From NCBI RefSeq assembly GCF_008370255.1, contig NZ_SEUI01000003.1, positions 62,001 to 126,000 of the forward strand: a stretch of 64,000 nt of DNA, read 5' to 3'. Every line of letters starts with the position of its first letter. Positions within the stretch are counted from its first letter, which is position 1. The notes below the pieces were generated by a model. The model worked only from the letters and a program-made list of their open reading frames with translations, was not told the DNA's origin and made no database searches. A program made the translations under genes and the position numbers. The DNA comes from Pseudoalteromonas sp. FUC4. Lineage in GTDB: Bacteria > Pseudomonadota > Gammaproteobacteria > Enterobacterales > Alteromonadaceae. Of this stretch, positions 9,927-14,346 are shown in pieces.

Positions 9927-10247
9927 TTATTCTTCGTTTAAAATAGGCACTTCTAAACCCATTTCTTGCATTATCTTTTTAACTTCTTCTGGTACTTTTT
10001 CTGCATTGTCTTTACGTAGATCATCGTCATTTGGTAAAGGTTGACCAGTAAACGCATGCAAAAACGCCTCACATAGCAATTCACTATTTGTTGCATGGCG
10101 AAGGTTATTGATTTGACGACGCGTACGCTCATCCGTTAAAACTTTTAATACATTTAGCGGGATCGAAACGGTGATCTTTTTAACTTGCTCTGATTTTTTC
10201 CCGTGTTCTGCGTATGGGTGAATATACTCACCATTCCATTTAGCCAT
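9927..10247 (-). CDS. metJ: MetJ, methionine repressor
   Basis: 106 residues, one more than E. coli MetJ and nearly identical in the DNA-binding ribbon: [20 protein letters not shown] near residues 17-36. The helix with [20 protein letters not shown] follows and contributes to S-adenosylmethionine binding. MetJ dimers with SAM bind tandem 8-base met boxes and repress methionine biosynthesis genes. It diverges from metB as in E. coli, and a matching operator is visible at 10501-10516 in front of metB. No clear met box was found directly ahead of metJ itself. Confidence 0.96.
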
Positions 10248-10516: not shown

Positions 10517-10536
10517 AAATTAATCAGGTGACGAAT

Positions 10537-11784
10537 ATGAGCGAAAAAAACAAAGCGACCATTGCTGTACGTAACGGCGTTGATGCTGATAAACATCATG
10601 GTGCAGTGGTGCCGCCAATTTATTTATCAACGACTTATTCGCTTGCCGACTTTGATACTAAGCGTGAGTATGATTATGGCCGCAGTGGTAACCCTAATCG
10701 TGATATTTTAGCAGAGACGCTTGCTAAGCTTGAAGGTGGCGCTCGTGGCATAATTACGGCTACTGGTATGGCTGCCGTGCATTTAGCTACTCAGCTACTT
10801 AACAGTGACGACACGTTAGTAATTCCACATGATTGTTATGGTGGTAGCTATCGTTTATTTACATCGTTACAAAAACGCGGACTATTGAAGCTTGAAGTAT
10901 TAGATTTAACAAAAGAAGAAAGCCTTCAACAAATTTTAGCAATTAAACCTAAGCTTATTTGGATAGAGACTCCAAGTAACCCAGTACTTCGTTTAACCGA
11001 TATTAAAGCGGTTACCAATGTTGCTAAGCAATGCGGTGCATTGGTTGCCGCAGATAACACGTTTTTGTCTCCTGCGCTGCAAAACCCTATTAAGTTTGGT
11101 GTAGATATTGTGGTGCATTCAACTACTAAATATATCAACGGGCACTCAGATGTAGTGGGCGGCGCTGTTATTGCTGCAACACAAGAGCTTGGTGATGAGC
11201 TTGCTTGGTGGGCAAATAATATTGGTATTACGGGCGCCCCTTTTGATAGTTATTTAACGCTTCGTGGTCTACGTACTTTAAATGTACGCTTAAGGCAGCA
11301 CCAAGAAAATGCGCTAGCAATAGCTAAGTACCTTGAAAGCTCTGAATTTGTAAGCCAAGTTTACTATCCAGGGCTTGAGTCGCATCCTCAGCATAAGCTT
11401 GCTAAAGCACAACAACTTGGCTTTGGTGGCATGGTTAGTTTTGATATTAAAGGCGATATAAACGACGCCGCAGCATTTTTAACTAGCCTTAAAACGTTTA
11501 GTTTAGCTGAGTCATTAGGTGGCGTAGAGAGTTTAATTTGTCACCCCGCAACTATGACGCACGCAGGCATGGAGGCAACAGCACGTTTAGAAGCAGGTGT
11601 GGGCGATACGCTTATTCGTATTTCGGTTGGGATTGAAGATATACACGATTTAATAGCTGACTTTGAACGAGTATTTGACCTTGTAAAACCAGGGCAAAAT
11701 AAAAATGTTGGCCGTGTAGGCAAAGGTGCTGGCACTTCTGGTGGAAACGTTAAATTAAGTGCAGCCCGTCCAGCGCTTTGGTAA
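10537..11784 (+). CDS. metB: Cystathionine gamma-synthase (MetB)
   Basis: 415 residues of the Cys/Met metabolism PLP family. GAVVPPIYLSTTY begins the core, YGRSGNPNRD lies near residue 45, and the PLP lysine is K198 in VHSTTKYINGHSD. LICHPATMTHAGM is the C-terminal conserved block. It joins an activated homoserine ester to cysteine to give cystathionine. The ATG at 10537 is used because AGG in TCAGGTG is well spaced; a GTG at 10528 overlaps that site. The tail extends about 30 glycine-rich residues beyond typical MetB. Close relatives act as O-succinylhomoserine sulfhydrylases, but the MetJ context supports MetB. Confidence 0.92.
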   Translation: MSEKNKATIAVRNGVDADKHHGAVVPPIYLSTTYSLADFDTKREYDYGRSGNPNRDILAETLAKLEGGARGIITATGMAAVHLATQLLNSDDTLVIPHDCYGGSYRLFTSLQKRGLLKLEVLDLTKEESLQQILAIKPKLIWIETPSNPVLRLTDIKAVTNVAKQCGALVAADNTFLSPALQNPIKFGVDIVVHSTTKYINGHSDVVGGAVIAATQELGDELAWWANNIGITGAPFDSYLTLRGLRTLNVRLRQHQENALAIAKYLESSEFVSQVYYPGLESHPQHKLAKAQQLGFGGMVSFDIKGDINDAAAFLTSLKTFSLAESLGGVESLICHPATMTHAGMEATARLEAGVGDTLIRISVGIEDIHDLIADFERVFDLVKPGQNKNVGRVGKGAGTSGGNVKLSAARPALW

Positions 11785-11787
11785 ATA

Positions 11788-11996
11788 ATACCAATCCGCA
11801 ATAATACCTAATCAATTTGAGGGATTAAACCGCACGCTAACATCGTTAAAAGTTTCTGATATACGACTGCATGGATGCAGGAGGTAGAGCAATGCAGGAG
11901 CAATTGCCAGGAACAACTAAATAACGAAATTTTTGCCTTGTTATCGATACGGTTTTCTTACCTCAAAATAGACAACTTAATTAAGCGAATTGGTAT
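11788..11996. mobile_element. MITE-like fold-back element between metB and metL
   Basis: A 209-base segment is bounded by 12-base terminal inverted repeats, ATACCAATCCGC (11788-11799) and GCGAATTGGTAT (11985-11996), matching at 11 of 12 positions. It is flanked by a perfect 5-base direct repeat AAATA (11783-11787 and 11997-12001), as expected for a target duplication. The inner halves also resemble each other as imperfect inverted repeats (for example AATTTGAGGGATTAAACCG against the reverse complement of CGGTTTTCTTACCTCAAAAT), so the whole element can fold back. It encodes no transposase. A non-autonomous element mobilised in trans is the simplest reading. Confidence 0.72.
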
Positions 11997-12000
11997 AAAT

Positions 12001-14346
12001 ATGGTCAATTGTGTACATAAATTTGGTGGTTCAAGCTTAAGCTCTAGTGAGCGCTATCAAAGCGTAGCTAAAATAATTATTGGGCATACTCAGCCGGGCG
12101 ACTGTGTTGTGGTATCTGCTGCAGGTAAAACTACAGATACACTTGTGTCGTTGTGGCAAAGTTATCAGCAGCAAGACACGCAAGCTGTCGCTGATATTTT
12201 ACTGCAGTTAAATAACCACCAAAGCGATTTAATTGAGCAGTTATTACAAGCTGATTTAAAGCGCAGCGCACTTAAAATACTAAATACCGAACTTAGTAAT
12301 ATTGCAGAACTTGCTCAAGCTGAGCAGCTAAAAGAGGCTGCGTTACTTGCGCATGGCGAACTGTGGTCAGCACGTTTACTCGCTACTTATTTACAGCAGC
12401 TAAATATTGAGGCGTGTGCTCAAGATGCCCGTAGTCTTTTTACCTTAAACGATGGTGAATTAATGCATGCGCAAAATGCGCAGCAATGTGGGCAGTTAAT
12501 TTTACCCAATAAGATAAATGTTGTTACTGGGTTTATTGCCGCAGATACGAAAGGTGAGACCGTAACACTTGGGCGCAACGGTAGCGATTATAGTGCAACA
12601 CTACTTGCAAATTACTGTAATGCTAAGCAAGTATGTATTTGGACCGATACACAGGGAGTGTTTAGCACTGATCCTCGTAAGGTAAAAAAAGCGATTAAAT
12701 ATAGTAAAATTTGTCGCGGGCAAGCTAATTTATTAGCTCGTTTGGGTAACCCTGTATTACATGCAAAAACACTATCGCCACTTAAAAACACAGATATTAA
12801 GCTAGCTGTTCGTAGTAGTTTTGATGTGCAAGCAAGCCCAACAAATATAGTAAAAGAAGGTTCAGCAAAGAAAAAGCGCTTTATAACCACGCTGCAAAAT
12901 GTTGACTTGTTAATGGTTGAAGGATTAAGTGAAGGTGAGGTCGCAAGCGTTAGTCAGCTTATTCAACATAGCCTTCATCACTTTAACCATAATGGTGAAG
13001 TGTATTTAGTAGTACCGGCTGCACAAACATATCAAGTTATTAATTACTTTGCTGGTAGAGCTAATATTAGTGAGTCAAATTTAAATGGCTGTGCAATTGT
13101 TGCCCCTGAGCAAGACATTAGCGTACTAAAACTGCAAGCTTTAGAAGTATTAGCTGAGCAGACTATAAAGCCGCGTTTTGTGCATCAAGATAATGGTTAT
13201 GTTTTATTATTAACAGACCAATTTATAGATAGCGATATACAAAGCGCCTTACACGATAAACTAATCAATAAAGGCCAAGAAATAGCCGTTATAGTTGCGG
13301 GGCTTGGTAATGTAGGCGATGCTTTTATTGAGCAGTTATCGGCACAGTTTGAGCGTTTATCAGGCGACTTTAGTATTAAATTGGTAGGGCTGATTCGCTC
13401 TAAACATATGTTATTTAATGCAAGTGGCATAAATATATCGCAATGGAAAACTCAATGGCAGCATGAGGCGAATAGCTATGAAGCTGCGGATTTACTTAAT
13501 GCGATAAGCGAGCTTGACTACGAACATAAAGTTTTAATTGATATTACTGCAAGTGAGCAGTTTAGCTTTTTATATACAGATTTTGTAGACAGAGATTGTC
13601 ATTTAATTAGTGCTAACAAATATGCAGGTACAGCACCTACTTCTTGGTATAAAGCACTTCGTAGTAACCTTGGCGAACGTAATTTACATTGGCGATATAA
13701 TACAAGTGTAGGCGCAGGCTTACCTATCAATTTTGCTTTGGCTGATTTGCAGAATAGTGGTGATAAAATTACGCGTATTGAAGGCGTGTTCTCGGGTACG
13801 CTTTCGTGGTTATGTAGTAAGTATGATGGTACCACTGCTTTTTCTGAGTTGGTATTAGAAGCACAGAAAATGGGGTTCACAGAGCCTGACCCTCGCGAGG
13901 ATCTATCTGGACGAGATATGCAGCGTAAGTTACTTATTTTAGCCCGAGAGTTAGGTATAGAGCTTGAGCTTGATGATATTAGCTTATCGGCATTAATGCC
14001 CGGCGAGCTTGCGCTAGGAAGCTGGGATGACTTTCTAAACAATAAAGCTCAGCTAGATGCGTTCATTAAAGAGCATGCTGATACAGCAAAAGCTAATAAC
14101 TCAGTACTGAGATACACGGGCCTATTAGATATAACAAAAACTGAAGTAATCGCTAAAGTAGGAATTACGTATGTGCCCAATGGCGATGCGTTAGTGAATT
14201 TAAAACCGGGCGATAATATTTTTGTAATTAATAGTAGGTGGTACAACGACAACGCATTAGTGATTCAAGGACCTGGGGCAGGCCAAGAAGTAACCGCAGC
14301 GGGTATCCATTCAGATTTATATTGGCTTGTTCAAAAGTTAAAATAG
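12001..14346 (+). CDS. metL: Bifunctional aspartate kinase II / homoserine dehydrogenase II
   Basis: 781 residues from ATG 12001 (E. coli 810). The aspartokinase half starts VHKFGGSSL and includes TLGRNGSDYSATLLA near residue 182. The homoserine dehydrogenase half begins with the NAD-binding VAGLGNVGDAF near residue 433 and contains SANKYAG and MGFTEPDPREDLSGRD. The two activities commit aspartate to homoserine. The start is problematic: a MITE-like element ends five bases upstream and no clear ribosome binding site precedes the ATG. The frame stays open through the element back to 11875, so an extended N-terminus is possible. Distance and the insertion suggest coupling to metB is weakened. 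Confidence 0.93.
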   Translation: MVNCVHKFGGSSLSSSERYQSVAKIIIGHTQPGDCVVVSAAGKTTDTLVSLWQSYQQQDTQAVADILLQLNNHQSDLIEQLLQADLKRSALKILNTELSNIAELAQAEQLKEAALLAHGELWSARLLATYLQQLNIEACAQDARSLFTLNDGELMHAQNAQQCGQLILPNKINVVTGFIAADTKGETVTLGRNGSDYSATLLANYCNAKQVCIWTDTQGVFSTDPRKVKKAIKYSKICRGQANLLARLGNPVLHAKTLSPLKNTDIKLAVRSSFDVQASPTNIVKEGSAKKKRFITTLQNVDLLMVEGLSEGEVASVSQLIQHSLHHFNHNGEVYLVVPAAQTYQVINYFAGRANISESNLNGCAIVAPEQDISVLKLQALEVLAEQTIKPRFVHQDNGYVLLLTDQFIDSDIQSALHDKLINKGQEIAVIVAGLGNVGDAFIEQLSAQFERLSGDFSIKLVGLIRSKHMLFNASGINISQWKTQWQHEANSYEAADLLNAISELDYEHKVLIDITASEQFSFLYTDFVDRDCHLISANKYAGTAPTSWYKALRSNLGERNLHWRYNTSVGAGLPINFALADLQNSGDKITRIEGVFSGTLSWLCSKYDGTTAFSELVLEAQKMGFTEPDPREDLSGRDMQRKLLILARELGIELELDDISLSALMPGELALGSWDDFLNNKAQLDAFIKEHADTAKANNSVLRYTGLLDITKTEVIAKVGITYVPNGDALVNLKPGDNIFVINSRWYNDNALVIQGPGAGQEVTAAGIHSDLYWLVQKLK

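Follow-up and report, generated by a model that had tools for sequence, protein, structure and literature searches.

The window discussed here is a stretch of 64,000 nt from the 4.33-Mb genome of Pseudoalteromonas sp. FUC4 (contig NZ_SEUI01000003.1, positions 62,001 to 126,000), which we designate G000; other genomes and loci are likewise given G and L numbers. Within the window, the genes metB and metL follow one another on the same strand, separated by an interval that is occupied by a short, palindromic insertion. This insertion is a copy of a miniature inverted-repeat transposable element (MITE) that we term MITE1. Nested in MITE1 is a separate, insertion-like unit of 47 bp, the ‘type A module’, which was missed by an earlier reading of the same DNA made without database searches (the sequence-only reading). 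MITE1 alone would be ordinary; the nested twin-hairpin module is the noteworthy part of the locus.

MITE1 AND ITS TARGET SITES

A MITE-like insertion at the metB–metL junction had been proposed in the sequence-only reading, and multiple copies, a target duplication and empty sites bear this out. MITE1 is a non-autonomous palindromic element of about 160 or 207 bp, with TACCAAT ends, that enters TNA targets (Table 1). It has the attributes by which MITEs are recognized: small size, terminal inverted repeats, no transposase, many dispersed copies, a target duplication and an empty orthologous site. The terminal inverted repeats noted earlier are present, as ends of 11 bases that match at 10 of 11 positions in the window copy. 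So is the fold-back body (predicted RNA fold, −51.7 kcal/mol; z −4.35). The absence of a transposase gene also holds: no open reading frame (ORF) of transposase size lies inside the element, the only two listed there being one in the metL frame and an antisense one of 86 codons that overlaps the left end. A promoter carried by the element was considered and rejected, prediction yielding one candidate (11778–11805) against a mean of 1.2 in shuffled sequences.

Table 1. Features of the metB–metL interval and the genes beside it (window coordinates)
Feature	Position	Strand	Remarks
metB	10528..11784	+	stop TAA 11782–11784; gene label as in the sequence-only reading
TAA, left copy of 3-bp target duplication	11786..11788	none	
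MITE1 copy, long form	11789..11995	+	207 bp, TACC to GGTA
Left terminal inverted repeat TACCAATCCGC	11789–11799	+	read from sequence
Type A module, embedded	11864..11910	+	47 bp; covariance-model match 11862–11913, 52.8 bits; absent from short MITE1
Module hairpin 1, CTGCATGGATGCAG, loop AUGGAU	11867..11880	+	
Module hairpin 2, GCAAT-GCAGGAGCA-ATTGC	11889..11907	+	
10-codon ORF, MQEQLPGTTK	11892..11924	+	behind AGGAGG 11879–11884; read from sequence
Right terminal inverted repeat GCGAATTGGTA	11985–11995	+	read from sequence
TAA, right copy of 3-bp target duplication	11996..11998	none	
metL	12001..14346	+	native start ATG 12001

The target duplication is 3 bp in length rather than 5. Identical trinucleotides stand directly outside TACC...GGTA in 29 of 39 MITE1 copies (TAA in 18, TTA in 10 and TGA in one), against a mean of 15.1 and a maximum of 24 in 1000 shuffles of the flank pairs; the 39 include orthologous copies from the metL site, and are not all independent. 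Repeats of four or more bases occur at the true ends in none of them. The pentanucleotide AAATA, previously taken for the duplication, does literally flank both sides, but a 5-base repeat at those boundaries is found in one copy of the 39, that of the window alone, and we reject AAATA in favour of TAA. Nor does the duplication overlap the A of the metL ATG, as had been thought, because the right-hand TAA (11996–11998) stops short of the start codon at 12001. The MITE1 targets fit TNA, the target of the IS1031 group of the IS5 family of insertion sequences (IS).

A sequence search for other copies returned 53 pieces from the own genome (E ≤ 10), comprising long copies, short copies, fragments and halves of a single copy, together with matches in 78 of 99 Pseudoalteromonas genomes (E ≤ 0.001). 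Matches occur in 44 of 394 genomes across the order; outside the genus, most among the matches listed span positions 76–121 or so of the query, the central module. The sequence-only reading had supposed a partner IS with the same ends. None was recognized among the own-genome matches read, or among 30 PF13340 loci of the genus screened for ends within four mismatches and an identical 3-mer; several of these loci are cut by contig ends, and other IS families were not searched. Catalogued phage records match neither element nor module, and an origin from such phages is rejected, though viral contigs in IMG/VR do hold modules.

THE metB–metL JUNCTION ACROSS THE GENUS

The metB stop and the metL start could be placed in 95 of the 99 genus genomes (all except G002, G015, G061 and G065). 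In 73 of these, 4–6 nt separate the stop from the metL ATG; in the window the distance is 216 nt. MITE1 lies at the junction in seven genomes, in the long form in G000, G079, G066 (with an internal deletion) and G007, and in the short form in G080, G037 and G008. We built a metL tree from 25 of the 99 genomes, G097 being dropped for an anchor mismatch and G045, which carries the mini-element described below, being left out. The seven filled genomes and two empty ones, G087 and G096, form a single clade of nine in this tree (support 100/100), seven of whose nine members thus carry MITE1. The empty sites of these close relatives are orthologous, and supply the comparison with strains lacking the insertion that was earlier proposed. 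Their alleles look like outgroup junctions, not scars, so that MITE1 probably never entered them, or recombination restored the empty state. The metL sequences of G066 and G096 hardly differ, but the junction is filled in the former (a draft assembly with 9% contamination) and empty in the latter.

Several smaller observations concern the same region. In five other genomes (G019, G045, G048, G067 and G081), which belong to another clade, the junction holds a mini-element of ~40 bp with similar, TACCAAT-like ends; independent insertion and a much deleted MITE1 are indistinguishable here. In G007 and G008, metB apparently ends earlier than in relatives, perhaps through small frame changes near its 3′ end, and the spacing is 267 and 201 nt, respectively. 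G079 (L167 / L073) has another long MITE1 copy, with 91% identity to that of the window, which lies ~2.1 kb upstream of its metL copy and flanks the same operon.

THE NESTED MODULE

The module is missing from short MITE1 copies with exact ends (ATA|GAACAA). Its type A sequence is present eight times in the own genome, on each occasion within a MITE1 copy, and the covariance model described below finds one place in the window. Elsewhere it is not confined to MITE1. At one junction, an unrelated MITE of G416 and G257 carries zero, one, two, four or five tandem type A copies; its empty copies are L291, L293 and L295. Other unrelated surroundings in which type A modules occur are a MITE of G111, CGTC-like palindromes of G157, a terminator-like hairpin of an IMG/VR contig, a gene of G452 (L199) that we take to be transposase-like, and further sites. 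Within three mismatches, the type A pattern is found in 13 of 394 genomes and seven of 114 genera, the reversed control giving none among the matches listed. In IMG/VR, three contigs match the type A pattern and 31 a more general one; the many among the 31 that lack the hairpin-1 stem are probably chance matches.

Modules of other sequence follow the same plan. Type B is a 47-bp insert in a second MITE, MITE2, of P. distincta. MITE2 is palindromic, with ends GGGCSTGTTGATCTTT, and measures about 300 bp without insert; type B and the 48-bp type C occupy two fixed positions in it. All four states exist in the own genome: no insert (L010), B (L306), C (L301) and both (L299). In G049, a MITE1 copy (L221) bears a further module type at a different position. 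Nesting goes beyond this: MITE2 itself sits inside the metB–metL MITE1 copy of G080 (L166), and inside another MITE1 copy in L010, and in an IMG/VR contig (L258) a type A module lies within the hairpin-2 loop of another module.

One host is a protein-coding gene. On plasmids of Salmonella and Moellerella (L169 and L170), a module contributes 16 in-frame residues to the BREX methyltransferase PglX, and in the Moellerella protein these residues are an in-frame insert relative to PglX of Escherichia coli and Azotobacter. Because module-free relatives show it as an insert, capture of the unit from pglX is rejected. A stretch related to the module is present in pglX of two of 5,426 E. coli genomes. 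An assembly artefact is also unlikely as the source of modules, since they vary, covary and occupy many independent genomes.

No duplication is visible at the module ends, and four host repeats share the junction TA^G. The junction falls in an apical loop in six of 14 context clusters, where 3.2 or 1.9 are expected (P 0.066 with 25-base and 0.007 with 40-base flanks); this is suggestive only of targeting to hairpin tips.

TWO HAIRPINS WITH CONSERVED LOOPS

Modules of 47 or 48 bp, though divergent in sequence, share a common plan: two hairpins, each with a GGA loop and a covarying stem. In the aligned representatives, hairpin 1 has the loop AUGGAU closed by a C–G pair and hairpin 2 the loop GCAGGAGCA; the stems vary and their pairing is kept. 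Alignment A1 contains 18 sequences that were selected by eye; most of them belong to a set of 68 distinct pattern hits. Paired cells amount to 80.6% in A1, against 55.7% when shuffled and 30–49% in slid versions, and its covariation score is 0.663 against 0.215. In the larger alignment A2, which was fitted to the covariance model, 85.3% are paired and two-sided changes appear at all 14 pairs. A stem-blind check used the 27 distinct hits among 30 fetched pattern loci. Fifteen of these have a hairpin-1 stem of at least three pairs (shuffled mean 2.9, maximum 8), and the stem is present in 14 of the 16 hits that continue with GCA but in one of the 11 that do not. Type B is an independent case for the loops, having been found by comparing two MITE copies.

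The family is large. The gapped pattern CATGGATG-N14-18-GCAGGA occurs at 253 places, in 70 of 247 genomes, and its reverse at three (both counts are sums over the genome table). With the covariance model, whose E-values are rough, the own genome yields at least 26 places (E ≤ 0.5) from the 150 of 804 candidates that were scored; judged by their flanks, the best 24 comprise nine in MITE1 and 15 in MITE2. Across the order the model has matches in at least 112 of 394 genomes and at least 35 of 114 genera, where at most 14 candidates were scored per genome and copy numbers are lower bounds.

HOW THE MODULE MIGHT BE READ

The account that we consider probable is a composite one, in which MITE1 carries a 47-bp module from a large two-hairpin family and acts as a structured spacer in the metB–metL mRNA. 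It builds on what the genomes display: the copies, the 3-bp duplication, the empty sites, the exact presence or absence at orthologous and paralogous sites, and the covariation. MITE1 would have been moved in trans, probably by the transposase of an IS. Its central type A module would be one of many 47/48-nt units in which the GGA loops are conserved and the stems vary freely; such units are present in some MITEs and other sites and absent from others, with exact ends, no visible duplication and, at times, in tandem. What is conserved would then be a folded single strand, most likely of RNA. The conservation of the loops suggests that a protein recognizes GGA within them, presumably contacting both. 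At metB–metL, the element most likely forms a 216-nt spacer that separates metL translation from that of metB, and metL translation may have come under the control of the candidate GGA-reading protein.

As to which protein this might be, the foremost candidate, if a tentative one, is the dimeric regulator CsrA/RsmA. The host genome encodes CsrA. The CsrA/RsmA consensus is CANGGANG, and hairpin 1 (CAUGGAUG) fits it. The paired GGA hairpins of the module match the plan of CsrA sites; according to the excerpt of PMC4333381 available, GGA hairpins occur in pairs at such sites because the protein is a dimer.

A number of points weigh against this composite account or parts of it. No partner IS was recognized for MITE1, and one module lies within a coding gene, pglX. 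Hairpin 2 (GCAGGAGC, loop GCAGGAGCA) fits the consensus incompletely, and the two loops do not both conform; binding by CsrA is predicted from the paired GGA loops, and we hold it to be somewhat doubtful. TwoAYGGAY (RF01731), the sole CsrA-type Rfam match in 15 loci (E ≤ 0.5), lies off the module, at L190 961–1121. The helix-1 figure of A1 is inflated because its 18 rows were picked by eye, and two counts discriminate little: that of A1 pairs with two-sided change was matched by 22 of 500 shuffles and that of further pair types in A2 by 65 of 500. Finally, the search pattern fixes the loops, and loop constancy among its hits is partly by construction.

ALTERNATIVE EXPLANATIONS

Could the 47 bp be an original part of MITE1 that was lost from the short copies, similar sequences elsewhere being pieces of MITE1? 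Long and short copies do coexist, and the metL tree is explained as simply by loss in two lineages as by repeated gain, but we consider this very improbable. The unit recurs with identical ends in hosts otherwise unlike MITE1, in tandem and with empty counterparts; other module types occupy MITE2; and the zero to five copies at one junction of the unrelated MITE already contradict it. A less remote view, though one that we also think unlikely, is that the module is a minimal mobile element of the HUH kind, a relative of repetitive extragenic palindromic (REP) sequences and their REP-associated tyrosine transposases (RAYTs) or of IS200/IS605 ends, and that a Y1 transposase recognizes its hairpins as DNA. 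Such an element should have two end hairpins, leave no duplication, prefer a particular spot and insert at hairpin tips. The exact ends without visible duplication, the recurrent TA^G junction and the apical-loop junctions agree with this, and it is compatible with a regulatory role. On the other hand, no transposase is linked to the modules (RAYT genes were not searched for), the GTAG tag stands in five of 18 module representatives, which do not qualify as GTAG-type REPs, and the hairpin-tip test is marginal. In RAYT substrates the stems rather than the loops are conserved; in the modules the loops are constant and the stems variable, which is the opposite. The two ideas can be joined: the cassettes might be two-site CsrA/RsmA platforms, spread by a single-strand mechanism, that rewire the Csr regulon or soak up the regulator. 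We regard this combination as speculative and rather unlikely. If it is true, the metB–metL copy would be one event of Csr-regulon rewiring, and the cassettes would have spread among MITEs, other palindromes, terminators and genes.

At metB–metL itself, the insertion could have lengthened the N-terminus of MetL or supplied a new start at ATG 11875, or coupled metL to a leader formed by AGGAGG and the ATG 7 nt behind it, at 11892. The metL frame is indeed open upstream to ATG 11875 in the window, as the sequence-only reading noted, but this is no rule among the seven filled alleles. An open frame with an in-frame ATG inside MITE1 is found in G000 and G066 alone; in G080 the frame is open and its MITE1 part lacks an ATG; and in G079, G037, G008 and G007 the frame is shut, for which reason we reject a conserved extension and set aside the suggested change of N-terminus. 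Most module units of other genera have ACG where the short ORF has its ATG, this ORF is probably incidental, and the empty alleles begin metL at the position equivalent to ATG 12001. Both versions of this idea strike us as scarcely credible. The insertion was also said to have cost metL its ribosome-binding site. That claim is rejected: a Shine–Dalgarno-like motif (GGAG, GAGG or AGGA, at a fitting distance) precedes metL in five of the 95 genomes, and is absent from the other 90, among them the empty alleles G087 and G096. That its absence is the rule in the genus, and that two of the nine clade members lack the element, would suit the view that MITE1 is neutral here, with metL translated, as in relatives, from a weak start of its own and with hairpins of no consequence. 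Against this, if indirectly, stands the 4–6-nt spacing usual in the genus, which suggests a coupling that the 216-nt spacer would break. We doubt that the element is neutral; altered coupling of metL to metB, another proposal of the sequence-only reading, is possible.

RELATION TO KNOWN REPEATS

A search of the open-access literature found no description of MITE1 or of the module. MITE1 resembles ERIC, YPAL and NEMIS/Correia elements in being short, palindromic, multicopy and noncoding, with terminal repeats, and in lying beside genes. It differs in host, in its 3-bp TNA duplication and in bearing a nested module that is found in other settings too, and presumably in sequence. Bacterial MITEs are expected to fold in mRNA, according to the parts of PMC3733652 and PMC10969869 consulted.

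The module, for its part, resembles REP sequences (GTAG and CGTC types) and REPINs in being small, dispersed and palindromic, and in being inserted at times in palindromes or genes. REP elements are described in the available part of PMC3733652 as small dispersed palindromes, some of which lie within other palindromes or genes. Unlike them, the module comprises two dissimilar hairpins within 47/48 nt, with conserved loops, and has GTAG in few representatives. With CsrB, RsmX/Y/Z and TwoAYGGAY it shares paired hairpins with GGA loops, and its loop AUGGAU fits AYGGAY. Unlike CsrA/RsmA-binding RNAs, it is dispersed and insertion-like, and the modules of 15 loci gave no match in Rfam at E ≤ 0.5. 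As a small palindromic in-frame insert, of 16 residues in plasmid PglX, it recalls the Rickettsia palindromic elements, which are, in the sections of PMC3733652 and PMC10969869 consulted, small palindromic inserts in frame within protein genes. It departs from these in taxa, sequence and structure, and in having one verified coding case.

Small bacterial repeats are commonly regarded as inert relics of transposons. In the module, structure is conserved more than sequence over many genera, and exact ends mark it where it lies in unrelated repeats. Should a regulator read it, mobile DNA would be a route by which post-transcriptional control sites spread; should a transposase do so, it would rank among the smallest mobile DNA units.

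Three observations lie to the side of these subjects. In G232, the TwoAYGGAY match on the minus strand of L190 (961–1121) exceeds the gathering score, and a type A module lies some 370 bases away from it. Upstream of metB, the window contains an ORF on the minus strand (9927–10247) whose product presumably resembles the methionine repressor MetJ. Among 26 named loci, all of them from Pseudoalteromonas, the best match to MetL of the window is the protein of Pseudoalteromonas distincta ATCC 700518, with 97% identity.

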